Shown here one piece after another: positions 404 to 38,800 of a DNA stretch of 56,147 bases (positions are counted from its first letter, which is position 1; every line of letters starts with the position of its first letter). The stretch is from Geitlerinema sp. PCC 9228. GTDB taxonomy: Bacteria; Cyanobacteriota; Cyanobacteriia; Cyanobacteriales; PCC-9228. The stretch lies in the NCBI RefSeq assembly GCF_001870905.1, contig NZ_LNDC01000080.1, positions 1 through 56,147 of the forward strand. The letters are read 5' to 3'. The notes beneath the pieces were generated by a model that made no database searches, was not told where the DNA came from, and worked only from the letters and a program-made list of their open reading frames with translations. A program made the position numbers and the translations under genes.

Positions 404-900
404 ATTAAGATAAATAACGATTTGGTCGCCTACGAAAATTTGAGGATTCGCAACATGGTGAAAAACCATTGCGGGCGCAAAATCGATAAACAATGCTGCT
501 TGGGACAAGTTCCGCATCTGGCTAGAACAGTTTGGTAGAAAGTAGGGGGGATAACTGTTGCTGTTCATCCCGCTGGTACGACCCAAAACTGTTCCGGCTG
601 CAGTGCCATGGTTCGCAAGTAGGGGCGGTTCGCGAACCGCCCCTTCCACACGTACCCACATTTGCGCCTTGTGGGTGTTGGTTGGATAGAGATGAAAATG
701 CGGCACGTAACATTTGGGAACTTGCTTTAAGTACGGTGGGGCACACCGAAACTTCTGTCGGTGAGGCAGGAAACGCTTCCGGAGATTCGTCCGCTACGGT
801 AGCTGGTGAAAGCCTGTTGCCGCAAGACGAATCGTTGAAGGAAGAATCCGCGTCTGCGACGAGCGCGGAGTGTCAACGTAAATGTAAATGCAAGGAGTGA
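404..900 (+). pseudogene. decayed IS200/IS605-type TnpB (C-terminal half)
   Basis: Three different frames on this strand read as consecutive pieces of TnpB, the RNA-guided nuclease encoded by IS200/IS605-family elements. The first piece (about 418-468) reads DLVAYENLRIRNMVKNH, the segment with the RuvC-II glutamate. The second (about 553-617) reads GITVAVHPAGTTQNCSGC, the start of the zinc ribbon. The third (about 646-720) reads CGCWLDRDENAARNI, the end of the ribbon with the RuvC-III aspartate. A Ser/Glu-rich tail typical of IS1341-like TnpB closes at the stop at 898-900. Stop codons and frameshifts separate the pieces, and a perfect palindrome interrupts the zinc ribbon, so the gene is dead. 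It lies directly against crtR. Confidence 0.8.
621..644. repeat. perfect 24-bp palindrome inside the TnpB remnant
   Basis: AGGGGCGGTTCG is followed at once by its exact reverse complement. It sits between the two Cys pairs of the decayed TnpB zinc ribbon, where a functional gene would have only a few codons, so it is probably an insertion. Short palindromes with AGGGGCG/CGCCCCT arms are common dispersed repeats in filamentous cyanobacteria. A related AGGGGCGCAACGCGT motif is found at 41434-41500. Confidence 0.7.
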
Positions 901-1876: not shown

Positions 1877-3046
1877 TTATTCCCTACAGGTAACGGGGTA
1901 CAAACGACAAAATTCCGATTGGAACATTTGCCAAATCTTTTGGTGACCTTTGGCGTTAAAATGGGCGCGGGTACGGGTCCACAAATCGGGGTTTTGAAAT
2001 TCCCGGGAAGGAACAAACATTAGTTCGCTGCCGGTGTGCAATGCGACCGTTTCTAGATAGGCTTTCAGCTCTTGCAAAGCTTGCAAATATCCCTCTCGTT
2101 CTTGTTGGGTAATGCGGTCGTATTCGTAGTGAATGGGAAAGGAAAAAATAATCGGTGGTTTGGCGCTGATGCGTTTGGCGATCGCGATCGCTTGTTCCAA
2201 ATAATCTCCCTGAACGTGAGGCGTAAACACCGGAGGATTGCCATTGGTATCTTCAGCATAGGCTCGTTCGTAGGGAAAATCATCCATTCTAGCAGCCAGG
2301 CGATTGGTTCCCTTGCCGCGTTCGGGAAACAGCCGCATCAAAATAGAACGGGGAATTAAAGCAGAAACCGTCCAAAAGGCTGGATAGTTGCCAATGTATT
2401 CGATGCGCAAAAAATCGCGATGGCGGTACATCATAGAGAGATTCCCTAGCCTCCATTGTGCCTTGGCTTCTACAGCTTCGGTACGAGGTAAGGCCGCAAT
2501 ATCCAAACCAAATTTTTGTGGGTCTATAAAAGGAACGAATCGCTGCAGTTCGTAAATGGTTCCCGAAGCAGCATAGGCAGAAGTTTTTTGACCGGTTTCG
2601 CTCACCAAAAACTTGCTAGGCAAAACTTCAATAATAACGCGATCGATTTTTGCCACATTGGCTTTTTCCATCGCATCCAGCATGACCGTGGAAGATACCG
2701 TATCTCCCCCCGGCAAAGCCAAATTAAACGAACGCCAGGGGTCATCCAAAGCTTGGGATAGTTTTCCCATTACAATATCTTGATGGTCGTAGACGCCGCC
2801 ACCTAGGAGGGTCGAATCTCCCACCCCAATGATTTTACGCTCGTCAGAAGCGATCGCTTGTTGCAAAATGGCACGCGAACCATGCAAAGCACTCACAGCA
2901 ATGCGGGAATATTGGGGCGCAGCTATGCGAAATCCCACTTCTAAAAGCGCCAACCCCACGAAAAAAAATAGCAGAATTCGCTTCACCGAAACCCTCGGCA
3001 ACCATCGAAAATAGCTAACATAAATTCCCCGCCGCGACGATGACAT
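1877..3046 (-). CDS. membrane-anchored SGNH-fold protein of the polysaccharide acylation locus
   Basis: The product has 389 residues, with one N-terminal membrane segment (about 22-40, preceded by Arg/Lys) and an extracytoplasmic domain. Block I of the SGNH fold is visible as GVGDSTLLGGG, with the candidate nucleophile Ser78. A C-terminal block reads AHFNAKGHQ with His362. Classical SGNH enzymes have Asp three residues before that His; here the residue is Thr359, so the catalytic set may be altered. Partners of MBOAT acyltransferases such as AlgJ, AlgX and DltD share this fold and finish acyl transfer to the polymer outside the membrane, and I infer the same role. The ATG at 3046 has GGAGG (3057-3061) ten bases upstream. 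It is the last gene of the operon, 30 bases after the microprotein gene. Confidence 0.7.
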   Translation of the reverse strand: MSSSRRGIYVSYFRWLPRVSVKRILLFFFVGLALLEVGFRIAAPQYSRIAVSALHGSRAILQQAIASDERKIIGVGDSTLLGGGVYDHQDIVMGKLSQALDDPWRSFNLALPGGDTVSSTVMLDAMEKANVAKIDRVIIEVLPSKFLVSETGQKTSAYAASGTIYELQRFVPFIDPQKFGLDIAALPRTEAVEAKAQWRLGNLSMMYRHRDFLRIEYIGNYPAFWTVSALIPRSILMRLFPERGKGTNRLAARMDDFPYERAYAEDTNGNPPVFTPHVQGDYLEQAIAIAKRISAKPPIIFSFPIHYEYDRITQQEREGYLQALQELKAYLETVALHTGSELMFVPSREFQNPDLWTRTRAHFNAKGHQKIWQMFQSEFCRLYPVTCRE

Positions 3047-3076
3047 AATTGGCTAGCCTCCAACGTCAAAAACTGC

Positions 3077-3187
3077 TTAAAAATCAATATAAATAAATTC
3101 ACTAACAGGCGCTCCGAAGCTGAGCACCAACCAAACATTCGCCACCATAATCAAGGCAATGCTAATTTCCAATAGAATTTGTTTCAT
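3077..3187 (-). CDS. DltX-like membrane microprotein (36 aa)
   Basis: The ATG at 3185-3187 overlaps the TGA of the MBOAT gene as ATGA, and GGAGT (3193-3197) lies five bases upstream. The gene ends in TAA at 3077-3079. The product has a short N-terminus with Lys2, one hydrophobic helix (about residues 4-24) and an acidic C-terminus, which predicts N-in, C-out topology. The last six residues are F-I-Y-I-D-F. As I recall, DltX of the Gram-positive dlt operon is a microprotein of about 50 residues with one helix and a C-terminal FIYxxF-type motif, and its Tyr has been proposed as an acyl acceptor during D-alanine transfer. The position between an MBOAT and an SGNH protein suggests an equivalent acyl-relay peptide. 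The coding call is well supported; the DltX analogy is inference from motif and context. Confidence 0.72.
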   Translation of the reverse strand: MKQILLEISIALIMVANVWLVLSFGAPVSEFIYIDF

Positions 3188-4521
3188 AAAACACTCCGAA
3201 CAACCAACTGCAAATACTGACCCACATCTTCTAAAGACCACATAAACAGACTCCACCCAAACCAAACGCAGGCCATGGTTAACCCATAACTACATGCAGT
3301 ATAGATCTTACCGCTAACCCAGCGAGTTGGTAGGTGGGGTTTCATTTGGCTTGCGTATACCCGATGGATGGCCAGCAAGAAACCATGCCACAATCCCCAC
3401 ACAATAAAATTCCAATCCGCACCGTGCCATACACCAGAGACAAACATGGTGGTGATAATATTGAGCAAATTACGTACAAATCCAACGCGACTGCCTCCTA
3501 AAGGAATATAAATGTAGGTCAGCAACCAACTGTACAAACTAATATGCCAGTGTCGCCAAAAATCGGCAATATTGGTTCTCAAATAGGGAAAATGAAAGTT
3601 TTCTGGCAAATGAATGCCAAACAAACGAGCGCTGCCAATGGCAATGTCGCTATAGCCGGAAAAGTCCAAATAAATCCGAAATCCGTACAGAAAAATTGCA
3701 CCGCTCAACAGAATAATATTTTGCGTTTTGTCGGGGGACCCAACTTCTTGGATTAAGGTGTTGAGATTGTCAGCAATGACGATTTTTTTGGCCAAGCCAA
3801 CAATAATTCGGCAAATTCCTTCCAGAATATGGTGAATTTTGAACTTCTGCGCCAACCCCAGCTGTTCTTGAAATTGATCGTAGGTTTTAATCGGACCGGC
3901 AATTAGAGTAGGGAAAAAGAAAATAAAAGATATATAGTCAATGAAGGAAATATGTCCGATTTTGCCCTTAAATTTCTCCGCAGCAACTTGAATAAATTCA
4001 AACGTAAAAAACGAAATCCCTAATGGCGCGACAATGCGTTCCACTTCGGTCGCCACAAACATGCTTTTGATAAAGCTGCTGTATTTAAAATATCCCAGAA
4101 CAAACACAAAGACAGGGATGGTTGCCAGCCATAGATATTTTTTGTAGTTGGCAGGAGCAACCGCCGTCATTTCCCCTGGGGAAGACAGCCGCATTGATTG
4201 GCTGTCAACTGATTCGGCTGTCGGTTGCTGGTTGGATTGGTAGTTGAGGGAATTGGTCGATTGCGTGGTATTTTGATAGCTAGCTGCCGTACTGTCTTTT
4301 TTTTGGGTTTGGGTTTCCCGCCAGGCATCCCAACCAAATAAGACAATCCAAGAGCCAACTGTAACGCTAGCAAGCAAAATCAACCAGTGGGAAGCGTAGT
4401 AGCCGTAACAAACAATGCCAGAAGTGGCCAAAATAGCTGGTTTGTATTTATGGTTGGCCAACCAATAAGCGATCGCTGTCACCAAGAGAAACAGCGCATA
4501 AAAAATTTCCCCGAAGATCAT
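3184..4521 (-). CDS. MBOAT-family O-acyltransferase (AlgI/DltB type)
   Basis: This 445-residue polytopic membrane protein belongs to the membrane-bound O-acyltransferase family, which passes acyl groups across the cytoplasmic membrane to surface polysaccharides. The core motif WRHWHISLYSWLLTYIYIPLGG and the catalytic-histidine region GVWHGADWNF (His about 366) followed by GLWHG are both present. An unusual stretch at about residues 66-130 is rich in Gln, Ser, Thr and Asn and is not hydrophobic; it is probably an extended loop between early helices, longer than I expect in AlgI. The gene lies 23 bases after the GT2 gene and overlaps the microprotein start by four bases, so translation is probably coupled. 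Acetate is the likely acyl group, but the sequence does not prove it. Confidence 0.9.
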   Translation of the reverse strand: MIFGEIFYALFLLVTAIAYWLANHKYKPAILATSGIVCYGYYASHWLILLASVTVGSWIVLFGWDAWRETQTQKKDSTAASYQNTTQSTNSLNYQSNQQPTAESVDSQSMRLSSPGEMTAVAPANYKKYLWLATIPVFVFVLGYFKYSSFIKSMFVATEVERIVAPLGISFFTFEFIQVAAEKFKGKIGHISFIDYISFIFFFPTLIAGPIKTYDQFQEQLGLAQKFKIHHILEGICRIIVGLAKKIVIADNLNTLIQEVGSPDKTQNIILLSGAIFLYGFRIYLDFSGYSDIAIGSARLFGIHLPENFHFPYLRTNIADFWRHWHISLYSWLLTYIYIPLGGSRVGFVRNLLNIITTMFVSGVWHGADWNFIVWGLWHGFLLAIHRVYASQMKPHLPTRWVSGKIYTACSYGLTMACVWFGWSLFMWSLEDVGQYLQLVVRSVL

Positions 4522-4544
4522 CCTTGAAATTGCCCCATCAATAG

Positions 4545-5549
4545 CTAATAGTTATTTTTTTGCCTGTTTTTTAGGTACATGTCATCTTGACGGCTGTAGC
4601 GCTGGCCATCATCCCACAGCGACTGTCCCATCGTCGCGATCGCGCGCAACATCCCCAACAAATAAAATCCCCCGCGCGCTGTCGTCGCCACCAGAGAACC
4701 ACTTTTTTGACAGGGAGGTTGGCCCAAAACTTGGCAGTCAAAAATCAACTTAGCAAAGCGCCACCATTGTACGAATGAAAGATGTTTGCACGCCATCAAA
4801 AAGTGATTGTGGTAAAAAGTAATTTGATACTGTAACGAACGGGTACTGATATCGTGGCAGCCGCCAGTGGGTTCTCCCAAATGCACCAAATGCGCTTCCG
4901 GATCGTACCAAACCTTATATCCAGTGCGGCGCAGACCCAGACAAAAATCTGATTCTTCACGCACTGCACTTCCTTGGAAACGTTCGTCAAAAGCCATAGC
5001 GTATCGATCAAAAAGTTCCCGCCGGAACGACATATTGCACCCACGCGCCGAAATCACCCACTGCGGCTTCACCGTATGGACCAAATCCAACTGATACCAA
5101 GCCACAGCTGGGTCCATGGCTTGGGGAGGCAGTTCTTCAATTTGCTTGGCCCCTTGAGACTCCGCCAGTTTCATGCGATCGAAAATCCGACCGGCTACCG
5201 CACCCACCTCTGGCCGCGACTGGAAATTACGCACGTGCGCGTGTAGGAAACCTTTTGGCAATTGCACGTCATCATCAATAAATAGGATAATCTCTCCGCG
5301 CGCGCGACGAACCCCGTAATTGCGTGCGCCTGGCAAACTGGACCAATTGACGCAAAACCACTGGATTTTACCTTCGTTGCTCACTTGCTGCAAATACGCT
5401 TGCACTTGCGGCTGATGCTGTTGGGTTTGATCCACCACCAGCACTTCAAAATGGGGATAGTCCTGTTCGAGCAAGTCTTCTAAAGTATCTCGCAAGGGTT
5501 CCTCGCGAGCGTAAGTTGGTACGATAACGGAAACCAAAGGAAAAGTCAT
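4545..5549 (-). CDS. family 2 glycosyltransferase
   Basis: The 334-residue product starts MTFPLVSVIVPTY, a typical GT-A N-terminus, and has the DDD metal-binding motif in FIDDDVQLP, which binds nucleotide sugar and a divalent metal. The following RGCNMSFRRELF and the Glu/Glu-Asp region (REESDFCLGLRR) match the acceptor-side motifs of GT2 enzymes. No membrane helices are convincing, so it probably acts at the cytoplasmic face. I prefer the ATG at 5549 to an upstream in-frame TTG at 5573 because it starts just before the first beta strand, although neither has a clear ribosome-binding site. It lies between the ligase/polymerase-like gene and the MBOAT gene in one minus-strand operon. Confidence 0.88.
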   Translation of the reverse strand: MTFPLVSVIVPTYAREEPLRDTLEDLLEQDYPHFEVLVVDQTQQHQPQVQAYLQQVSNEGKIQWFCVNWSSLPGARNYGVRRARGEIILFIDDDVQLPKGFLHAHVRNFQSRPEVGAVAGRIFDRMKLAESQGAKQIEELPPQAMDPAVAWYQLDLVHTVKPQWVISARGCNMSFRRELFDRYAMAFDERFQGSAVREESDFCLGLRRTGYKVWYDPEAHLVHLGEPTGGCHDISTRSLQYQITFYHNHFLMACKHLSFVQWWRFAKLIFDCQVLGQPPCQKSGSLVATTARGGFYLLGMLRAIATMGQSLWDDGQRYSRQDDMYLKNRQKNNY

Positions 5550-5619
5550 AAGGAAAAACCAAAATCTAACCAATCAAAAGTAAAAATTCATGGGAATCGC
5601 CATTCTCCAACGCGGATAG

Positions 5620-7260
5620 CTACGATTCCTCTTCCTCTTCTTGTTTTTTCCGTTCCATCTCCTGTCGGTCAATAACCGGTAGTTTGAACAAAACCCCAGC
5701 AAAAAACCAATAATAAACGGCTACTGGGTCCACATCCAAAGGATAGTAATACGTGTTATAGCTTATACATAACAAGAATACCCACAAACTGGCACCGTAA
5801 CTACTAATATTGGGGTCTTTGAGGGAACGATAGGTTTTCCAACCAACCACAACCAAGGTAGTTACCAAAGCTAAAAACACCAGTGCTCCCGGAAGTCCAA
5901 TTTCGTAGATAATTTTGGGGTAGTAGGTTTCTACCAGGGATGTATCTCCAAATATTCTGGCTGCGTTGGTAGCGCGTCCCACCCCTTCTCCAAAGAGCAA
6001 ATCGTCCTTCGTAGCCCAGTCAAATTGGTGGACAATAAACTGATGGGGAGGGGATTTTTGCCAGCGTTCGACAAAACTGTCGATGCGTTGTTGAACCACC
6101 TCTGGGTTGCTAGTAGCTGCTCCCACAAGTAGCAAACCCAAGCCAACACCAATGGGAATAAAGCGTTTTAAATTGGCAATTTGTCCGGTGAGAACGAGCA
6201 AAATAACGGTCACGGTAGGCACCAAAGCCAAGGCAATCCGCTGTCCGGAAATTACGGCATTTAAAAAGACCAATCCCATGGCGACCATGCTAATCGGACG
6301 CCAAATCAATCGTGAAGAATCGCTAAAGGCGGAGGCAAAAGTCAAGAAGGCATTGGCAATCAAAAACCAGGCCCATTGCCAAGGAGCAACAAACGTTCCC
6401 GGAAGTCGAATCATATTAACTTGGGGACTAAAAAGTAAGGAACCGCCTACCAGGCACTTGGCTTCTAAGGTGGCTTTAAATAAATCTTCTCCGCTTAAAT
6501 TTCGCGTTCCTACACATCTTCCCGAGTCCAGCATGTAATATTGCATGGCCCCCAAACAGCAGCAAATAATTGCTAAAACTACGTGGAGGCGACCGAGAAA
6601 CAGCAGTTCTTTTTTGTTGCGAATTAAATAATAGCCGCACAGCATTAAGGGAATATAACCAATAAAAACCTTCAATCCCAAAATGCCTAATAAGATCGGT
6701 TGTTCGGGTACACAGCGACCGTTTTTCTCCCAGCTACAAGGGTCGAATTGGTCAGGAATGTTTCCCATTATTATGCTCAAGGCACAGACAATTAGAAGGA
6801 GGGTGAGGGGTGTTTTTAGCTGTTTGACGATTAAAATTGGGGTGTTGGTTTGCAGGCATCTTTGTACCAAACGCATTAAGGCAGGGATGTAAAAGCCGTC
6901 TTTGGCGAGCTGAAAAATGGCGTTGCCACCGGCTATCCAGTAAGTCACCGTACCGGCAAATGGCATGTAAATTAAAAACAACCACATGCCCATCCGCCAG
7001 TATTTATAAGATAGGGCCATGACAATGGTACCACCGCACCCGGCTAGGGCTAATTTGGGTTCGTCTATGGCATAGAAGGCACCCCCCAAAAGCAGTCCTA
7101 AAGCTGTAAAAGGCAGTAGGAATTGGATGAATTCTTTGATTTCTTTCTGACGCTGTTTCTGCCGCTGGCGTATTTCTTTCTTGCTGAGTTTTGGTTTTTC
7201 ATTTTGCTGTTTTTTGTTTTTCTTTTTTTTCTTTTTTGCTTTGGATTTGGTAGGAGCCAT
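5620..7260 (-). CDS. O-antigen ligase/Wzy-like polysaccharide membrane protein
   Basis: The product of about 546 residues starts with a Lys-rich cytoplasmic tail (runs of Lys over roughly the first 45 residues), followed by ten or more hydrophobic segments. A large non-membrane loop near the C-terminal third contains GEGVGRATNAARIFG, ahead of helices that include YEIGLPGALVF. This is the layout of the O-antigen ligase/polymerase superfamily (WaaL, Wzy), which joins or polymerises lipid-linked sugar units outside the membrane. The protein ends in an acidic run of Glu. I chose the ATG at 7260, just before the Lys tract; an ATG at 7329 would add 23 residues. Whether it is a ligase or a polymerase cannot be told from sequence. 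Confidence 0.75.
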   Translation of the reverse strand: MAPTKSKAKKKKKKNKKQQNEKPKLSKKEIRQRQKQRQKEIKEFIQFLLPFTALGLLLGGAFYAIDEPKLALAGCGGTIVMALSYKYWRMGMWLFLIYMPFAGTVTYWIAGGNAIFQLAKDGFYIPALMRLVQRCLQTNTPILIVKQLKTPLTLLLIVCALSIIMGNIPDQFDPCSWEKNGRCVPEQPILLGILGLKVFIGYIPLMLCGYYLIRNKKELLFLGRLHVVLAIICCCLGAMQYYMLDSGRCVGTRNLSGEDLFKATLEAKCLVGGSLLFSPQVNMIRLPGTFVAPWQWAWFLIANAFLTFASAFSDSSRLIWRPISMVAMGLVFLNAVISGQRIALALVPTVTVILLVLTGQIANLKRFIPIGVGLGLLLVGAATSNPEVVQQRIDSFVERWQKSPPHQFIVHQFDWATKDDLLFGEGVGRATNAARIFGDTSLVETYYPKIIYEIGLPGALVFLALVTTLVVVGWKTYRSLKDPNISSYGASLWVFLLCISYNTYYYPLDVDPVAVYYWFFAGVLFKLPVIDRQEMERKKQEEEEES

Positions 7261-7363
7261 GATGTTTCTAGGTGGATTTTCCTTTGACAAAGGTACCGGT
7301 AAGGTTTGGTAGATGACCCCGATTTGCATTGGTTTGCTGGTTTGGAAAGGATGGTTGGTGTTG

Positions 7364-8215
7364 CTATCCGCGTACCAAGGTATTGAGTTTGCGGATGGCG
7401 CGGCGATAGAAAGAATATGGTTTGTATATTTGGTTGTAAAACTGAAATCTTTTTAGTTGCTGCCAAAAGCGATCGCCATAGCTTTGAATTTGCTTTTCAA
7501 AACGTTTTTGGGCGTATTCATAAAGTTCGATATCCAAAGCATTGTACTGGCGAATCACTTCTAAAGTTTCCGCATCAATATGGGAGGAACCTGTCTTTTT
7601 TTTGGTCACATTCCTTTTCGTATAAAAAGGCATTTTCCAATCGAAAGCTAGCTGGCAAAGAATTAAGGTTTCGTCAAATCTTTCTGTGAATCCCACCACG
7701 GCAAAGTGTTTGTCGATATTTTCCTTAGCCAACGCCAACATATCTGGTTTCGCTTCCCCGAACTTGACTTGCCAAGCCACCCCCGACAAAAGCCGCGTTT
7801 GAATGTTATCGTAAAGAGGCGAATCTTCCCGGGAAACAAAGGCCTGCAAGCTCATTTTTTCTTGATTGACCACAAAATCGTAAAAATTATGATGGGGCGT
7901 TTCCCAAATGTAATAATAATCAGAAATAACGCGGCTTATGGGGTCGCGCAACATGGTAATATAGCGACAAGGACGGGGAAAATACTTGTGCATACCAAAA
8001 TACATATGTCCTTTCAAAACCCGGAAAGCAGCGCGTTCTGTGGGGGGAAGATTTTGAAATTCTGCCATCGATTCCTCGTAGCGAGCGCCATTGGTGGTAA
8101 AAATCCCCTCCCCGGCGTATTGTCGTTCGATAATGTCGTTCAGGGTGCTACCGCCAGCTTTCCAAATATGTAGGAAAATCAGTCCTTCCCGGGTTGGTTG
8201 CGTGTTCTTCGCCAT
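7364..8215 (-). CDS. sulfotransferase-family protein
   Basis: The 283-residue product has the PAPS-binding P-loop-like motif LHIWKAGGSTLND close to the N-terminus and the 3'-phosphate motif LRDPISRVISDYYY about 90 residues later. This pairing is diagnostic for carbohydrate sulfotransferases of the heparan-sulfate 2-O type (sulfotransferase family 2). Such enzymes move sulfate from PAPS to sugar hydroxyls. As the first gene of an operon with glycosyltransferases, a ligase/polymerase-like protein and an acyltransferase, it suggests a sulfated exopolysaccharide, which many cyanobacteria make. The start at ATG 8215 is preferred to a TTG at 8266. The C-terminus is basic and Tyr-rich. Confidence 0.82.
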   Translation of the reverse strand: MAKNTQPTREGLIFLHIWKAGGSTLNDIIERQYAGEGIFTTNGARYEESMAEFQNLPPTERAAFRVLKGHMYFGMHKYFPRPCRYITMLRDPISRVISDYYYIWETPHHNFYDFVVNQEKMSLQAFVSREDSPLYDNIQTRLLSGVAWQVKFGEAKPDMLALAKENIDKHFAVVGFTERFDETLILCQLAFDWKMPFYTKRNVTKKKTGSSHIDAETLEVIRQYNALDIELYEYAQKRFEKQIQSYGDRFWQQLKRFQFYNQIYKPYSFYRRAIRKLNTLVRG

Positions 8216-8343
8216 CTTTGATTCGTGCTTTGCTTGCTTCGTGCGCCAATATTCAACTGGAGTCAATCTGCTGCAATTCTAGCTTATTTCCGGGAAAACT
8301 CTAGGGAAGTAAGACCGCCGTTTCATCACGGGAACTTTTTGTT

Positions 8344-27183: not shown

Positions 27184-29451
27184 TTACATGGTGCGATCGC
27201 TTGGTTGGTAGTAGGAATAGCTTCTCGGAATACCGGCTATTGCACTTTTGAGGAGGGAAATTTGAAAAATATCCTCGGTGGAATGCCACCGATAGCGATA
27301 ACAATGTTCCAATAGGTGGCTGGGATAAAAGGTGGTAAAAGTATTTTTGCCACTTTGCCAACCTTGGGGATGGTGGTGGGTAAATCGCAAAACTTGAATG
27401 GCAGAAGCAGCCAGTAAAGTATGTTTTTCGATGAGATAGTTTCCTCGTTCGTCTTGCAAGGCGGCAAAAGGAATGGAAACCAATTCTGCTTGAGGAATCA
27501 AGCCAACCAGTTGCTGGGGATTGCTAGGAAGCAAAGATTCAATGGGGGTAATTAATAGTTGGTAGAGTTGTTGCAAGTGTTTTTGCCGCTGGCTATTTTC
27601 CTGGCTATCTGTTTGGATTTCTAGGTTGTCTTCCCCAGTTCCCAAACGCCAGGCTAAATCGGTGATAGGGGTTTCTAGAAAGCTGAGATCGACGGCACGA
27701 AAGGCAATATTTTTATCGGGAGAAATGACCCAAATATACAGCCAATCGGGGTCGCTGACCACCGAATATTGCACCAAGGTAGCGTTGCGCTGGCTGGCCG
27801 TTTGGCGAATTTCTTCGACGGTGGATGCGCTAATATCCAGGATAGCGCCATCGGTTCCTGCTAGCCGGGAATTTAATAATTTTTTAAAGGTTTTCACGCG
27901 ATCGCTTTCGGCGACTTCTAAGGCAAGTTCGGTTTTTCCTAAGGCGACCAAAACTTGTTGCAATCGGGAATAATTTTTGGTTTGTTCGGTTCTCAAACTG
28001 GCAAGATGGCAGGTGGGAGGCATGCAATTGCTTTCGCTGGCTTCGGCGAGGGTAATGGCTTGCCAAAGAACGCTTTCTGCGGCTTGCAGTTCGCCGGCTT
28101 TGAACAAGACGATGCCTAAGTTGCCTAAAGAGCGAGAAATGCCAATTTTATAGTCGATTTGTTGGCAAATGTGGTGCGATCGCTTGTGAAGTTCCATTGC
28201 TTTCTCGTATTGTCTTTGAAAGCGATAGGCGACCCCCATGCGGTCGAGAAAGTAAGCCTGCGCCAGGCGATCGCCTAACTGGCGGTAGATGCGCAAAGCT
28301 TCCTGGTAGGATTGAACGGCTTTTCGAGCTTCTTGCAATCCCAGACAGGCATCGCCAATATTTCCCCAAGATTTGGCTATGTGGAAGCGATCGCTGAGTT
28401 TCCGGGAAATTTCCAAGGAGGTTTCAAAAAAGGCAATTGCACGTAAATATTCGCCTAAATCAGCGTAAACATTGCCCAAATTCCCCAGAGCGGCAGCCTC
28501 CCCGGAACGGGAACCAATTTTTCGGAATTTCTCTAAAGAATTTTGGTAGTATAAAATCGCATTGTCGTATTCGTGCAAGCAGCAAGCCGTCATACCCAAA
28601 TTTCCCCAAGCGACAGACATGCCATTACCATCGTCAACGGTTTGGAAACATGCCAGAGATTGTTGGTAGCACTCTTTGGCACTTTGATATCTTTCCATCG
28701 AAAAATAGATATTTCCTAGATGGCTAACGCAAATTGCTTCAGCCGTGGCATCCCCTACTTGCCGCCAAATCTCTAAAGATTGCTGCATGTATTGAATGGC
28801 ATGGCGATTGTTTCCCAATTGGGCATAAGTCATGCCTAAATTATCCAGAGAAGTAGCCATTCCATTTAAATCTTCCAAACTCCGGTCAATATCCCAAGCC
28901 AGTTGGTGGCATTCCAAAGCAGTTTGGTGTTTTTGCAAATGGGAACAAGCAATTCCCAGATTGTTGAGGGAAATAGCAATGGCGCTGCGATCGCCCAAAT
29001 CCCGGAAAATTTCTAGAGACTGTTGGTAAACGTCTGCAGCTCTGGTATACTGACCCATCGCAGCATAAGCCAATCCCAAATTCCCTAAAGAAGCAGCTTC
29101 TCCATGGCGGTCGTTGATGTGGCGGTAGAGAGTCAAAGCCTGTCGGTGATATTGAATGGCGCGGGGAGAATCGCCGCTATCCGCGCAAGCAATTCCCAAA
29201 CCCACAAGGGAGTTAATTTCGCCAGTGGTATCTTTCAAGGCGCGATAGTTGATTAAAGCGAGTTCCCAGCATTGGATGCTTTCCACCAACTCGCCGTTTT
29301 CTAACTTTTGATATCCTTGCAAAAACAAAATATCGCTTTTGGTTTTGCGCGTGGATGAATTGTTGTCTGCCATGGTATTTTGTGAGGTAGACAGAGGAAA
29401 AAGATGCACGTTGGCAGTTGCCATTTGAAAAGATTTGGGAACGTATCGCAT
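27184..29451 (-). CDS. TPR protein with truncated CHAT protease domain
   Basis: The 755-residue product holds about eleven 40-residue tetratricopeptide repeats (residues about 40-480, typified by ASLGNLGLAYAAMGQYTRAA), of the LGN/kinesin-light-chain type. The start of a caspase-like CHAT domain follows (VQYSVVSDPDWLYIWVISPD, then LVGLIPQAELVSIPFAALQD and TLLAASAIQVLRFT). In intact CHAT proteins the catalytic His (HLATHG) and Cys (LSACQT) come after this point. Here the sequence departs into an unrelated tail of about 50 residues and stops. No other frame downstream supplies the missing part before the next gene. It is probably a binding scaffold without protease activity, or a decaying gene. 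Start ATG at 29451; the ATG at 29373 is an alternative. Confidence 0.78.
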   Translation of the reverse strand: MRYVPKSFQMATANVHLFPLSTSQNTMADNNSSTRKTKSDILFLQGYQKLENGELVESIQCWELALINYRALKDTTGEINSLVGLGIACADSGDSPRAIQYHRQALTLYRHINDRHGEAASLGNLGLAYAAMGQYTRAADVYQQSLEIFRDLGDRSAIAISLNNLGIACSHLQKHQTALECHQLAWDIDRSLEDLNGMATSLDNLGMTYAQLGNNRHAIQYMQQSLEIWRQVGDATAEAICVSHLGNIYFSMERYQSAKECYQQSLACFQTVDDGNGMSVAWGNLGMTACCLHEYDNAILYYQNSLEKFRKIGSRSGEAAALGNLGNVYADLGEYLRAIAFFETSLEISRKLSDRFHIAKSWGNIGDACLGLQEARKAVQSYQEALRIYRQLGDRLAQAYFLDRMGVAYRFQRQYEKAMELHKRSHHICQQIDYKIGISRSLGNLGIVLFKAGELQAAESVLWQAITLAEASESNCMPPTCHLASLRTEQTKNYSRLQQVLVALGKTELALEVAESDRVKTFKKLLNSRLAGTDGAILDISASTVEEIRQTASQRNATLVQYSVVSDPDWLYIWVISPDKNIAFRAVDLSFLETPITDLAWRLGTGEDNLEIQTDSQENSQRQKHLQQLYQLLITPIESLLPSNPQQLVGLIPQAELVSIPFAALQDERGNYLIEKHTLLAASAIQVLRFTHHHPQGWQSGKNTFTTFYPSHLLEHCYRYRWHSTEDIFQISLLKSAIAGIPRSYSYYQPSDRTM

Positions 29452-29502
29452 CGTCAAAATCTCCCGAAAAATATCTCATATATGCGAGGTATACATGGTT
29501 CG

Positions 29503-29961: not shown

Positions 29962-32121
29962 CTAACGTGCCGCTTCTACCGCTTGGAGAGCATTTACCAA
30001 ACCAGCGCCAAAGAAATATTGTTCCCGCGAAATGGGAGAAGCCTTGGGAAAAATTCCCGATGGGCGAATAATGGGATATCCCATTGCCGTGCCAAACCCC
30101 ACAGCCGCCTGCAAGCGATAGTGATGCTTCTCTGCTTTCAACAAACTCAAACTATCGTAGCTAGCGGTTTCCTTAAGAATGGTGGCAATTTCCTCCCATC
30201 GCAAATCAGGATTGACTCCTTTCATTAAAGCCACCACCCCAGAAACATTGGGTGCCGAAAAAGACGTTCCCTGCACTTGTACGTATTTGCCGCGCGCATC
30301 TAAGGCAAGACCCCAGCTATAATCGGGAACGGAGATTTGCCGCCACCAACTTTCCATCCCAGTGCCTCCCGTGGTGAGAATGCCACCGCTCAAACTCCTG
30401 GAAGTATCCCCACCAGGTGCCACCACATCCAAACCACCGCCATAATTGCTGTAAAAAGTACGGTTTCCTTGCATGTTGGTAGCACCCACCGCGATGGTTC
30501 CGGGAATAGCAGCGGGAAACCCAACGCCGTCTAAATCGCTGTTTCCCGCCGATGCCACAATGGCAATATCCGGATGGGCATCCAAAATATCAAAAATTTG
30601 TCCAGTCAGCGCACTATCGGGAAGCAATCCTCCCAAACTCATATTAATTATATCCGCATCCCGCGCGGCGGCATAGCCAACTGCCTCGACCAAGGAAGCA
30701 GCATCGATCTCGCCACCCAAACCAAACACGCGCACTGGCAGGATTTTGGCGTTTGGTGCCACGCCGACAGCTCCCATTTTCTTGCTGGGATTGGCAGCGA
30801 TAACCCCCGCCGACCAAGTGCCGTGGAACTCAGAAGCTATCTGGTTGCGAACGTAATTGCGAATGCGCAGGGCAATTTCGGCTGAGGAAGCTTGGGGATT
30901 GTTTTGCTGCAAGTATTCTGCCAGGTCTGGGTATGTCTCTAGGATTTTTTGGTCGGAAGCAGCGAAGCTACGTTGGAAGTGAGGGCGCAAAACTTGCATT
31001 TCTTGAGAACTCAGGCGTGTATTTGGGTCGCCGCCATTTTCGCTGGAAAAATCCCAACCATGTTCTTCTCCTGGTAAGGCATTTTCGTAGTTGGCGGTGT
31101 TGGCAATATTGTTTTTTAAATCGGGATGGTCCCACTGAATGAGACTATCGATAACCGCAACGGTAACATTGCGACCACCATTGCTTTTTTCCCAGGCTTC
31201 CGTTATTTGTAAATCAGTTCTTGGTAAAAAGTTTCCCCGCCGGGGGGTGCTGTCTAGATGCCACTGTAAGGGCAACAAACTTTGGGCAAATGGCGTTTTT
31301 TCAGGCATGGGAAAGGCGGCAACGGTTTCTGGTAGCGATCGCGTAGCCTTTTTCTGGACCAATTTAGGTGAGTCAATTTGGGTTTGTTGGGGTTGGTAGC
31401 TGGGGGTTTGGATAAAATTGGGGGTTGCCGATTGGACCCCAATGGCGGTATTTAAACGGTTGGATACCTGTAAAATGTGGGTACCGGTGGCGGTTTGCGA
31501 TCGCACCAAGTATCGGTCTTCAGCAAAGCGCAAAGGTCGCACCACCTCTAGCTGATTTTGCGCGAGTAACTGACGCCGGCGGCTGTCGGAAATGTTAGGT
31601 TCCAGACTGAGAACGATTTCGTTGGGGAGGAGAATATTTTCTTGGTTGGCTTGCGCGTCTTCACCAGCGGCACGGCGACGCAACACGGGAAGGGTTTGGC
31701 TAACGTAAGATTGCTGCTGGATGCGCTGGCGTGCCATGGATACACCAGCAGAACGGGTGTTCCTCGGTAATTTCACCAAGGCATAGCGGTTGCCGATTGG
31801 CTGCACTTGCGCGTTCAAAGGCGCTCCCCGACCGCTTCCACGGGTTCCACTCCCTTGCTGCTGCAAGGCTTCTTGGAGTTGCATGTATAGCGGCTGCGTA
31901 GTTCCACGGGTTCTACTGCCGCTTTCTGGGGTAAAGGAAACGCCGATAATGTCGGAACGTTGGTTGAGGGGAATTTTTTGACCGTAGTAGGTGTAAAAGA
32001 GTTCTTCCGATGTTTGCGTGGGATGGGAGATTGGCTGCGCCAGGGAAACCATGGGGGGAATCCCTATAATTCCTAAAATGCAAGTGGTGGCAAACAAGCG
32101 GCAACCTAGGGGAATAACCAT
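29962..32121 (-). CDS. secreted subtilisin-like serine protease (S8)
   Basis: The 719-residue product has an N-terminal signal peptide (about 1-29, cleaved near SLAQ), a long prodomain-like region with two basic/Arg-rich segments, and an S8 catalytic domain. The triad is Asp325 (VAVIDS), His433 (FHGTWSAGVIA) and Ser620 (GTSFSAPNVSG). The usual Asp-His distance is about 40 residues; here it is 108, because of an acidic/Gln-rich insert at about 366-428. The oxyanion Asn is in SAGNSDLDG. It is likely periplasmic or extracellular. It diverges from the orthocaspase gene with 445 bases between and lies next to a TPR-CHAT gene. Confidence 0.9.
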   Translation of the reverse strand: MVIPLGCRLFATTCILGIIGIPPMVSLAQPISHPTQTSEELFYTYYGQKIPLNQRSDIIGVSFTPESGSRTRGTTQPLYMQLQEALQQQGSGTRGSGRGAPLNAQVQPIGNRYALVKLPRNTRSAGVSMARQRIQQQSYVSQTLPVLRRRAAGEDAQANQENILLPNEIVLSLEPNISDSRRRQLLAQNQLEVVRPLRFAEDRYLVRSQTATGTHILQVSNRLNTAIGVQSATPNFIQTPSYQPQQTQIDSPKLVQKKATRSLPETVAAFPMPEKTPFAQSLLPLQWHLDSTPRRGNFLPRTDLQITEAWEKSNGGRNVTVAVIDSLIQWDHPDLKNNIANTANYENALPGEEHGWDFSSENGGDPNTRLSSQEMQVLRPHFQRSFAASDQKILETYPDLAEYLQQNNPQASSAEIALRIRNYVRNQIASEFHGTWSAGVIAANPSKKMGAVGVAPNAKILPVRVFGLGGEIDAASLVEAVGYAAARDADIINMSLGGLLPDSALTGQIFDILDAHPDIAIVASAGNSDLDGVGFPAAIPGTIAVGATNMQGNRTFYSNYGGGLDVVAPGGDTSRSLSGGILTTGGTGMESWWRQISVPDYSWGLALDARGKYVQVQGTSFSAPNVSGVVALMKGVNPDLRWEEIATILKETASYDSLSLLKAEKHHYRLQAAVGFGTAMGYPIIRPSGIFPKASPISREQYFFGAGLVNALQAVEAAR

Positions 32122-32566: not shown

Positions 32567-34822
32567 ATGAGACCGATCGGACGCCGTCATTTTCTCCAAT
32601 TTGCCGCATCCGCCTTGGCGACCTTAGGTATGAGCCAACTTGAGGTGCGCAAGCAAGGGTGGCGCTACGCTAAAATGCTAGCAGCTCCCACTTCCCGGAA
32701 ATTGGCGTTGCTGGTAGGTGCCAACGGATATCCGGAAAATCCTTTGTATGGATGTATCAACGATGTGTTGTTGCAGCGGGAACTGTTAATCCATCGTTTT
32801 GGCTTTCAACCGGAAGATATTTTGACCGTGACTGACGAGACGGAGATAAAACCTACCCGGGAAGGGATTTTACAAGCTTTTGAACAACATTTAATCCAAC
32901 AAGCAAACCCATCCGATGTGGTGGTTTTCCATTTTTCCGGTCACGGTTCCCAAGTGGTTGACCCCAATTCTCCTTTTAGAAACCAACTTAACAGTACTTT
33001 TGTACCCCTCAATCGGCAAGTTTCCCAAAGTAGCGATCGCTTTGTGGTTTCCGATATCATGGGGAAAAGCTTGTTTTTGTTAATGTCGGCACTGCCAACG
33101 GAAAATGTGACGGTGATTTTAGACAGCTGTTACTCCGGCGGCGGCAAGCGGGGAAATCTCACCATACGGTCGATTGTTGGTGGCAACGATACCTATCGCA
33201 GCGAAAGCGAACGGGAATACCAGGAAAAATGGCAAGAACAATTAAAAATGAGCGATGAAGAACTCCATCGCCAACGCCAGCAAGGTGTCGCCAAAGGTAT
33301 CGTTATTGCTTCCGCCGCACCAGACCAGCTCGCTGCCGATACGCCGTTCGATGGCTTTCATGCGGGAGCGTTCACCTATGCGCTCACCCAATATTTGTGG
33401 CAGATGACTGGGAGCGAATCAGTTAGCAATGCGATCGCGAATATCTCCCGCAGTACCACCAAAATTTCCACAACCCGCCAAATTCCGGAATACGGCGTTC
33501 AACCCCATACCAATCACGAAAACAAGCCTACTTACTTTATCACCCCAGACACGCCGCCAGCAGAAGCGGTGGTCACGCAAATGGAAAGCGATCGCGTACA
33601 ATTTTGGATGGGAGGTATTGGCGCGCGTTCTTTTGCCGCCTTTAACCAGGATGCTATGTTTTCCCTGCTCGACCGACAAGGAAAAGAAGTCGGCACCCTA
33701 AAAATGGCATCCCGGGATGGTTTGGTGGGGTCTGGTACTTTAATAGAAAATTCCCGCACCCAAGGTTCACCGCAATCGGGATTGTTTTTGCAAGAAAAAG
33801 TCCGCGCTATCCCCAAGGATTTTGCTTTACATATCGCACTTGACCCTTCTTTAGGCGAAAATATCCGTACTCATACCATACAAAAACTATCCCAAATAGC
33901 CCGCGTGAAATTTTTTGAGTTGGGAGAAACAGAAATTCATTATATTTTGGGACGCATGGATGAAGAAAAGGCTGGGGAAGCTCGCAATCGGGATATCCAA
34001 GAAACGCCAGAAATTGGTAGTATTGGATTGTACGGTCAGGGATTGGACTTCATTCCCGGTTCCTTTGGTCCTGCCAACGAAGATGTTCCCCATGCGATGG
34101 AACGCTTGCAAGCCAAATTTAAATCCTTACTAGCCGCAAGATTGGTGAAACTGACCCTCAACGCCAGTTCCTCCCGCACCAAGGTATCGGCAACCATGCG
34201 CGTTGTTGGTTCCCAAGGCAAGGAAGCGATCGCAGCTCAAGAATTTACCCCCCGGGGAACGGTACGAAAAGAAGATATAAATGAGTCTACAGCCCATCTT
34301 TCCCTAGACCAAATCGATTTTAAAAATGGCATTCCCTTGTTGCCAATAGGAACACGCGTGAATTTGGACATTCAAAATCAAGAACAAGGCGATCTCTATA
34401 TCACAGTTATTGTAATTACACCAGAAGGAGATATGTCTGTAATTTTTCCCAATAGCTGGACAGCCAGCGAAGCTGCTGCTATTGTAGAAGCTGGAGAAAC
34501 CCGGACAATTCCCAACCAGGCTCAGGGAGACCAGTTTCAACTTACCGTAGACAAGCCTTTGGGAACCGCAGAAGTATTGGTTCTCGCTAGTGCAGCTCCT
34601 TTAAGCAAGGCTCTCAAACGGTTGCAGAAGATTGCTCGCAGTCGCGGGATGCGAAAAGGACCAATGGCCTTGCAGGAAGACGCTCCTGGCGCTATTGAAG
34701 AACTGTTGGAAGACTTAAATCGGGGAACCCGCAGTCTATATGCAACGCCAACAACTCGCACCGTCGATACATCGCGGTTAGCCGCCATGTCTATTACCTT
34801 CCGTGCCATCGAGGCACCATAG
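32567..34822 (+). CDS. orthocaspase (caspase-family C14 peptidase) with Tat-like leader
   Basis: The 751-residue product starts MRPIGRRHFLQFAASALATLG: twin Arg followed by a hydrophobic stretch, resembling a Tat signal. The p20-like caspase domain (about 44-320) has the catalytic His126 in FHFSGHGSQV and Cys188 in LDSCYSGGG, with the acidic pocket LYGCINDV upstream. Orthocaspases cleave after Arg/Lys and are linked to stress or cell-death responses in cyanobacteria. The C-terminal half has a DUF4384-like beta domain (about 590-680, GTRVNLDIQNQEQGDLYITV), common behind bacterial caspases. GGAG is nine bases before the ATG. Export would place the protease outside the cytoplasm, next to a secreted subtilase encoded divergently. 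Confidence 0.9.
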   Translation: MRPIGRRHFLQFAASALATLGMSQLEVRKQGWRYAKMLAAPTSRKLALLVGANGYPENPLYGCINDVLLQRELLIHRFGFQPEDILTVTDETEIKPTREGILQAFEQHLIQQANPSDVVVFHFSGHGSQVVDPNSPFRNQLNSTFVPLNRQVSQSSDRFVVSDIMGKSLFLLMSALPTENVTVILDSCYSGGGKRGNLTIRSIVGGNDTYRSESEREYQEKWQEQLKMSDEELHRQRQQGVAKGIVIASAAPDQLAADTPFDGFHAGAFTYALTQYLWQMTGSESVSNAIANISRSTTKISTTRQIPEYGVQPHTNHENKPTYFITPDTPPAEAVVTQMESDRVQFWMGGIGARSFAAFNQDAMFSLLDRQGKEVGTLKMASRDGLVGSGTLIENSRTQGSPQSGLFLQEKVRAIPKDFALHIALDPSLGENIRTHTIQKLSQIARVKFFELGETEIHYILGRMDEEKAGEARNRDIQETPEIGSIGLYGQGLDFIPGSFGPANEDVPHAMERLQAKFKSLLAARLVKLTLNASSSRTKVSATMRVVGSQGKEAIAAQEFTPRGTVRKEDINESTAHLSLDQIDFKNGIPLLPIGTRVNLDIQNQEQGDLYITVIVITPEGDMSVIFPNSWTASEAAAIVEAGETRTIPNQAQGDQFQLTVDKPLGTAEVLVLASAAPLSKALKRLQKIARSRGMRKGPMALQEDAPGAIEELLEDLNRGTRSLYATPTTRTVDTSRLAAMSITFRAIEAP

Positions 34823-35856: not shown

Positions 35857-38800
35857 TTACACTCCCAAAAATTCTCCTGCAACCAAATCGGAAATCTCTG
35901 CAGCATCGGCAGATTCTGTTTTCAATGGGTTTGGCAATCCCAAATTGGATACCGATATTGGTTCAAAGATTTCCACAAATTTTGATAAATCGTCAGATTC
36001 CTCAAGGGAAAACCCTTCTCCTTCTCCTTCTCCTTCTCCTTCGGGAAACTCACCCGTGATACCATCCAATCCCAACGCTTGCTCTACGCTTTCCCACGAG
36101 ACAAACTTAAAGTTGGTACTTTTATTTTCCAGCTCTTCTTCATCTTGAAAAACAGCCTGTGGTTCGTTGGCACCATCTTGCACAACCAATAAACCAGACG
36201 GATATTTTGTTCCCAAATTGGCATTCACCACATCCAAGCCATCGCTTTCGTTGGCTTGGTCGATGGGTCCGTTATCGCCGATAACGAAACTTCCCAAATA
36301 TGGATTGTCGCCTTCGCGGTCGAATACGGCATAGCTGCTGTCTCCCTGACTGGAAGCTAAAATATATCCGCTGCCATTGCCGGTATCGTAAATAGACAAT
36401 CCTTCTATATCTGGTTTGAGGGGAGATTCATCTTGCGATCGCAATTCTGCAATCTCTTCCCGTACTGACTCAGCCACAATCGCATTAACAGCCGCTGACG
36501 GGTGAAAATCATCCCAAAAAACATATTCATCGGGATTGGGAACCACTTCCCCAGTGGTCGTATTCAAAGCCTGACCGCTGGTATTGGTAAAACCGTATTC
36601 TACCGGACTTTCCAAAATATCATCAAAAATACTGGCAAAATCTAACTCCACAATATCGACATCCAAGCTAAATTCCAACGCATCCAAGCTGGTATCCAAA
36701 AGAGCGTTGAAACGGTCAAGGGAAGCAGCTATTTCCTCGCTGCGTCCGATGAAACGTACAAAGGGGGCAACGCTGAAATCTCCCAAATTGGGAACGAGGA
36801 AAGTTTCCGCCCCAGCTTCGGCGAGGGTAGTAATGTGACCAACAATATCGCTGACGACAGTAGCTGGATCGACGGGCATAGGACTTTGTACAAAATTGTT
36901 AGAACCAGCATGAAGATAAATTAAATCACTAGCATCGGGGGTGTTTTGGCTGAGGTAGGCGTTAATCTGTTCGCCAATGTTGGGTGTTCCTTCTGCGGAG
37001 GTACCAAAACCGGTAGTTGCCCCACCAATGGCAAAATTGCTGCCGCCAGCCAAGGCAGGAACAGAGGCATTGAGACCTAGCATCTCGGCAATGCGTTCCA
37101 CCCCCAGTTCGCCGTTGCTGAAACGACCTTGAAAGTAGGGAGGAGAAGGCGGTCTGGTTCCGTTGCTGGCAATGAAAGCGTTGCCTACATCGGAAAGGCT
37201 GTCGCCGAATACAACTACTTGGTCGAAGCTAGTTATGGCTTCTTCACCGGTATCGTTGGCTTGTACCAGTTCAAATTCGCCTTCGGTGACGCCAGTTTCA
37301 TCGGAGGATTCGCTGTCGTCGTTGGGAGAAGCATTGGTTTTGAGCAATCCTACTTCTTTTTCCATGGCAACGTATAAAATATTGCGATCGCGATCTACCA
37401 CCATACCTTCTGCTTGAGAATCAGCTGGGTCTCCCGTGGGAACCGGCAGTTCCAAAGTTCGTACCACATTGGCATTCACCAAACCATTTTCTTGGAAAAT
37501 CAACTCCAATTGAGCAACGAAATTCCCATCTGCTTGGGTAACAAACACATAAGGGGTTCCGGAGGTGGGGTCGGTGTACGCCGTCAAACCATAAGCCGTT
37601 TGTTCCCCATCATCTACACCAAAAATGGTTTCTGGAATATCTGGTGAAGTCACATCAATGAGTTGGCGACTGTTGGGGTCGATTCGCCAAATGGCCAGGG
37701 TGTCGTTTTCCCGGTCGGACGCGATCGCGAAATTTCCCAAAATATCCACATTATTATAGCGAATCTCACCAAAAGGAGCCGGCTGAATTGCTTGCAAAAT
37801 TTTCCCATTCAAATCAAACGTCACCAACCCCCCATCTTTCGCCGTCGCCACCACCAAGCTATTTGCCGGATTGTTGGGATTCACCCAAATACCCGGATCG
37901 TCGGAATCTCCTGCAAACAAGGCATTTTCACGATCGACAAACATCTGTGTCTCCACCACAGGCAACACCGCCGGTATTGTTTCCAAATCCAACGCCAACG
38001 CCACCAACTGAGTGGACTGAGTATCGTTAAAATTATTATCACTAACCACAATCAGCGACTGACGACCGTCTGGTAACTTCGGACCCAACGCCAATCCTTC
38101 CAAATTATCCGGCGTCACGCCAATTTCGGCAAAATCCAGCAACAGCTGCTTCCGAAGCGGCGGGTCAATTTCAAAGGGAATCCCTTCTTCTTCCCAGAAT
38201 AAATCCTGCTCACCACTGACATCGAGAGCTCCTTGGCTGTTGACTTCGTAAAGCTTCACCGTATTGCCAACCCCCGCCGAAAATGCCCGTTCCAACGCCA
38301 AAAACGTACCGTTATTATCGAGAGCCAGCAATTCCACCAAACCGTTGGTACGAAAACCATCAGCAGGAATCGGTTCTTCCGGTACCGCATCCACCTCGTA
38401 AACCAACTCGCGGCTGGGTTGTCGCGTCGCCACATCGTACGCCACCATCCGCGATAGGCTGCCATCCTCCAAACTCGCTGCCGGTCCATCCTGATGCAAA
38501 GCATTTTCTGTAGCCGTATACAAGTAACTGCCATCAGGGGTCAGCGTCAAACTTTCAAAAGCCAAATTGTTGCGAATTCCACGGCTGCTATCTGCGGTAG
38601 GGAGAAATTTCTGCGGCACCGGAAACTCGCTCAGCTGCCTGCCGTCGAGGCGATACTCCCGAATAAAAGGATTTATCAAATTGTTGGCATCTCCCTCGGA
38701 AGCAATCAGAAGCGTATTTTGCGGGGTTAAGGCAATGCCTTCCGGGTCGAGGCTGTTTTCTGGGAAAGGTTTGCCATTGCCTTGCAAAAGCGTGGTGACC

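Follow-up and report, generated by a model that had tools for sequence, protein, structure and literature searches.

The 56,147-nucleotide stretch of Geitlerinema sp. PCC 9228 DNA analysed here (the window) carries on its minus strand a very short open reading frame at 3187..3077, whose 36-residue product (MKQILLEISIALIMVANVWLVLSFGAPVSEFIYIDF) ends in the hexapeptide FIYIDF, with the motif tyrosine at position 33. An earlier note on this DNA had placed a microprotein at these positions, with an ATGA overlap and a ribosome-binding site at its start and a single helix and FIYIDF tail in its product, and all of this is borne out, the strand being the minus strand. The ATG (3187-3185) overlaps the TGA stop of the preceding gene (3186-3184) as ATGA, a Shine-Dalgarno-like GGAG can be read 6 bases 5' of it (3194..3197, minus strand), the tail is seen in the translation, and the helix in the hydropathy profile, with one predicted transmembrane segment and a Kyte-Doolittle 19-residue mean of 2.44. 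A longer form starting at TTG (62 residues) was also considered and is unnecessary, because the ATG is found in all ten homologues. Judged from its sequence, the frame is confirmed as a real gene for a tiny membrane protein.

The gene whose stop it overlaps (4521..3184, minus strand) encodes an MBOAT acyltransferase (Pfam PF03062, 122 bits against a cut-off of 27) with an invariant, conserved His366 in a WHG motif. This protein ends in QLVVRSVL and has no FxYxxF at its own C-terminus. A structural model (pLDDT 80) found DltB as its best match, with a Z score of 35.9 over 371 residues at an rmsd of 3.1. The model matches DltB over almost its whole length, so the window MBOAT is a full core as large as DltB.

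On the other side, preceded by a Shine-Dalgarno-like GGAGG seen in the sequence (3057..3061, minus strand), lies a gene for an SGNH-like extracytoplasmic protein (3046..1877, minus strand) with an N-terminal hydrophobic helix, a G-D-S78-T block and His362. It is placed among SGNH proteins by these motif blocks and by a Pfam GDSL score below threshold (20.3 against 32.9 bits); Ser78 and His362 are invariant in four distant homologues. An AlphaFold2 model built from four sequences was too poor for a fold search (pLDDT 41), a PDB profile search with the window protein and its closest counterpart (locus L034, see below) returned a single chance match, and no other match to the window protein was found among 386 genomes of the phylum. 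The protein is presumed to be the final acyl transferase. In the window and L034 proteins (1877-3046 and 4371-5576, respectively) the block with the catalytic-type histidine reads WTRTxAHFN, without the usual aspartate three residues before the histidine, which is kept in the proteins of L035, L036 and family f48.

Further genes lie upstream on the same strand: a family 2 glycosyltransferase (4545..5573, PF00535), separated from the MBOAT gene by 23 bases, a multi-pass membrane protein (5620..7329) that resembles a polysaccharide polymerase or ligase by reading only, with no Pfam match above cut-off, and a sulfotransferase (7364..8266, PF06990). With the MBOAT set, and given the shared strand and close spacing, they read as a polysaccharide operon. 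Elsewhere in the window, a broken frame at 532-900 (plus strand) looks by eye, with no Pfam match, like the C-terminal zinc-finger part of an IS200/IS605-type TnpB (DRDENAARNIW). A 1458-residue protein at 35857-40233 (minus strand) combines Exo_endo_phos, phytase-like, GDSL lipase and phytase domains, and a caspase-domain protein (PF00656 with DUF4384; 32567-34822, plus strand) lies beside a subtilase (29962-32121, minus strand) and a TPR-CHAT protein (27184-29457, minus strand).

Split loci and their distribution

The same arrangement, in which a frame of 36-57 codons lies directly 3' of a shortened MBOAT gene, was found at nine further loci, giving ten split loci with the window. Of the nine, one is in a second cyanobacterium, five are in genomes of a single deep-branching family (f48) within the window's phylum, two are in Myxococcota and one is in a planctomycete. 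The second cyanobacterium, which came from a scan of species genomes, is a Synechococcales MAG (L034, 56% identity by tblastn), in which the MBOAT gene is followed with an ATGA overlap by a 36-residue microprotein (MRQFLLEISLAFIMLFHVFLILSLGASSSEFIYIDF) and then by the SGNH gene. The split MBOAT of a member of the Myxococcales (L035) is paired with a 50-residue microprotein ending FLYVDF, that of the planctomycete (L036) with a 57-residue one ending FIYIDF, and the second myxococcotal locus (L131, genome G692) came from a profile search of Myxococcota. The f48 genomes, which are all the sampled members of that family and are all split, came from a motif pattern search of the 386 genomes; matches of this DNA pattern in unrelated frames across the phylum had no MBOAT nearby and were discarded. 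Across the three phyla, all ten microproteins end in F-[IL]-Y-[IV]-D-F followed by the stop codon, and this hexapeptide, always at the very C-terminus, is their most conserved part.

An SGNH-like gene adjoins the microprotein set in nine of the ten loci; in the tenth, L081, the MBOAT gene is cut off by the start of the contig and the flank is unreadable. The order is MBOAT-microprotein-SGNH in the window, L034, L035 and L036, and SGNH-MBOAT-microprotein in L078, L079, L080, L082 and L131, so the linkage of the three genes survives a change in gene order.

The distribution of the split set is rare and patchy. Within the window's order it occurs once in 371 genomes and within the order of L034 once in 29; two of 189 Myxococcota and 5 of the 18 genomes of the class that holds f48 also have it. 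Among 199 Planctomycetota there was one match at 581 bits, the rest scoring 323 or less; those that were read are fused, most tails here being judged by score and frame length. Horizontal spread of the split cassette seems likely.

Separate and fused tails

Both the positions of the motif and the substitutions within the gene speak for a genuine coding sequence. FxYxxF stands before only 3 of the 3609 stops in the six frames of the window, the microprotein's own among them. It precedes none of the 960 stops that follow 68 fused-MBOAT loci (some few of these loci being redundant), and downstream of split MBOATs it is present at 10 of 10 loci, so that chance is rejected as the origin of the frame. 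Between the window and L034 genes, eight codons are identical (stop included), 17 differ synonymously and 12 nonsynonymously, with 11, 4 and 25 differences at codon positions 1, 2 and 3, respectively; this position bias and synonymous excess are a coding signature.

Every non-Dlt MBOAT relative whose end was read terminates in the motif itself, among them relatives with longer frames from a sample of the window's order. The MBOATs paired with a microprotein are exactly the tail-less ones, so that an MBOAT either has the tail built in or receives it from a separate peptide. The separate peptide is not general to cyanobacterial MBOAT-SGNH pairs, as the usual MBOATs of cyanobacteria, two paralogues in the same genome as the window among them, carry the motif fused. 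Immediately C-terminal to the motif tyrosine, all ten separate peptides have Ile or Val; the fused MBOATs that were read have Phe at this place, or in rare cases Tyr.

Beyond the last core helix, the window MBOAT has 19 residues and the split MBOATs 16-19 (nine measured), compared with 85-148 in fused proteins. The stretch that leads from the core to the motif helix in fused proteins is therefore mostly missing in the split ones and not merely interrupted. In a phylogenetic tree, nine split MBOATs group together as a single clade (100/97).

Relation to Dlt, PatA-PatB and AlgI-type systems

The DltX background on which the earlier note drew agrees with a 2025 paper (PMC12148441), according to which DltX binds both DltB and DltD, the motif tyrosine of PatA is acetylated and required, and an acetyl-FIYANF peptide serves as acetyl donor to PatB. 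The same paper describes non-Dlt MBOAT-SGNH pathways as having no DltX-like microprotein.

The split set shares features with each of these systems. Like the DltX-DltB-DltD machinery of teichoic-acid D-alanylation, it has a separate single-helix peptide with a FIYxxF-type tail, an MBOAT of DltB size and a putative SGNH-type partner. It differs in that its peptides have no PF12459 (DltX) match, its MBOAT lies outside the sampled DltB branch, neither a DltA above cut-off nor a carrier gene accompanies it, and the microprotein gene directly follows the MBOAT gene, whereas DltX precedes dltA, as seen in L136. With the PatA-PatB and AlgI-type pairs it has in common the gene pairing, the absence of a dedicated D-Ala ligase, the closest MBOAT sequences and the hexapeptide. 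In those pairs, however, the MBOAT itself carries the hexapeptide, on two additional helices; the MBOATs of the split set lack these residues, and the tail is encoded by a gene of its own. A Dlt-type operon of Bordetella genomosp. 13 (L045) offers a further comparison, with a tail-less MBOAT and, directly upstream of it, an unlisted DltX-like peptide ending FQYQQF (2601-2726, plus strand) that Pfam also misses. Unlike the split set, this operon places the microprotein gene before the MBOAT gene and includes a carrier (PF00550), a DltD (PF04914, 191 bits) and an AMP ligase. A separate tail is therefore also present in Gram-negative Dlt-type operons, and what is new is a separate tail without the Dlt donor genes.

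The earlier note had proposed that this locus encodes the same relay as DltB-DltX-DltD. The conserved three-part arrangement supports this well as a mechanism by analogy, and the microprotein probably works like DltX; membership of the DltX family is not established, because the family model finds none of these peptides, the window MBOAT falls short of the DltB equivalog cut-off (TIGR04091, 184.8 against 375 bits), the operon differs and no ligase (DltA) scored above cut-off in eight split genomes. PF12459, which scores 72.6 bits on the real DltX of L136, gave no match at E ≤ 1 in six split microproteins and none above cut-off in six split genomes, with two of 14 control genomes passing. Remote homology to DltX may still exist, because the proteins are short and PF12459 also misses the Bordetella peptide.

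A literature search, whose scope did not include the primary 2023 paper on the DltX acyl shuttle, returned no description of a separate shuttle peptide in non-Dlt MBOAT-SGNH systems. In the earlier view the shuttle tyrosine is separate in Dlt and fused to the MBOAT elsewhere, a rule that the split clade breaks in three phyla. From its gene content, the split set is a putative acyl-shuttle system outside Dlt, contrary to the statement of absence in PMC12148441, and its microproteins belong to a gene family too short to be recognized by the Pfam and NCBIfam libraries.

Proposed acyl relay and its alternatives

We consider it highly probable that the three genes form a polymer-acylation system in which the acyl-shuttle tail is encoded separately, and in which an acyl group would pass from the MBOAT to Tyr33, on to Ser78 and finally to a polysaccharide. 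This proposal draws directly on the gene and its coding conservation, the invariant C-terminus, the tail-less MBOAT and the linkage to an SGNH-like gene; for the acyl-tyrosine chemistry, the topology and the complex, we infer from PatAB and Dlt biochemistry. In this model, a donor in the cytoplasm, most likely acetyl-CoA, would provide the acyl group, most likely acetyl, which the MBOAT would transfer to Tyr33 by means of His366. The helix of the microprotein would cross the membrane and leave the C-terminus on the outer side, where the acylated tyrosine tail would swing to the SGNH protein and load Ser78; the SGNH protein would then esterify a polysaccharide made by the neighbouring genes.

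It is very improbable that the locus is instead a true Dlt system, performing D-alanylation with a divergent DltX. The window MBOAT does match TIGR04091 weakly, and its low score alone does not exclude Dlt, because the Dlt-type MBOAT of L045 is also low on this model (198 bits); in addition, the SGNH protein of L079 narrowly misses Pfam DltD (21.8 against 22.7), and the FIYNEF end of Latilactobacillus DltX closely resembles FIYIDF. Against this, the DltBs of Lactobacillus and Niallia group on a branch (100/100) that is separate from the split clade, and PF12459 fails on all split microproteins. Moreover, no DltA scored over the cut-off in eight split genomes, with two control genomes passing, and no carrier and ligase pair adjoins the split genes of the kind that accompanies L045; a scan of the ten split loci alone gave no carrier-like frame and the same scan found the carrier of L045.

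A frameshift or assembly error in an ordinary fused MBOAT gene could leave a short coding stretch of this kind, as the microprotein is read in a different frame from the MBOAT, immediately at the MBOAT stop, and resembles the last helix of fused MBOATs with its motif. This explanation is barely credible, as the same split recurs in unrelated assemblies of ten genomes from three phyla, each with its own ATG, the split MBOATs are missing most of what joins core and motif helix in fused proteins, and they form a single clade. Somewhat easier to entertain, if still improbable, is a purely structural role, with the microprotein stabilising the MBOAT or the MBOAT-SGNH complex and its tyrosine carrying no acyl group. 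The binding of DltX to both DltB and DltD means that a scaffold role exists (PMC12148441); on the other side stand the position of the hexapeptide at the very C-terminus and its conservation above the rest of the peptide, together with the acetylation of the same kind of hexapeptide in PatA (PMC12148441).

Within the preferred reading of a three-component acyl relay, an exopolysaccharide is a plausible acylation substrate, given the neighbouring genes, although the identities of both the polymer and the acetyl-CoA donor are guesses. An acyl-CoA donor appears more likely than a D-Ala carrier, because of the absence of DltA above cut-off and of carrier-like frames in the loci. The split set would offer a naturally occurring in-trans form of a system that is probably fed by acyl-CoA; its peptide could be mutated, swapped or added separately, leaving the MBOAT as it is. 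It is also conceivable, if rather doubtful, that the separate tail is the ancestral state of MBOAT-SGNH acylation and was fused later, in which case the split clade would be a living link between Dlt and PatA/AlgI-type systems.

In two f48 genomes, the SGNH-MBOAT-microprotein set is immediately preceded by a gene for a FadD-like acyl-CoA ligase (L078 3057-4895, L079 3003-4850), which hints at a possible supply of acyl donor and a longer acyl group there.
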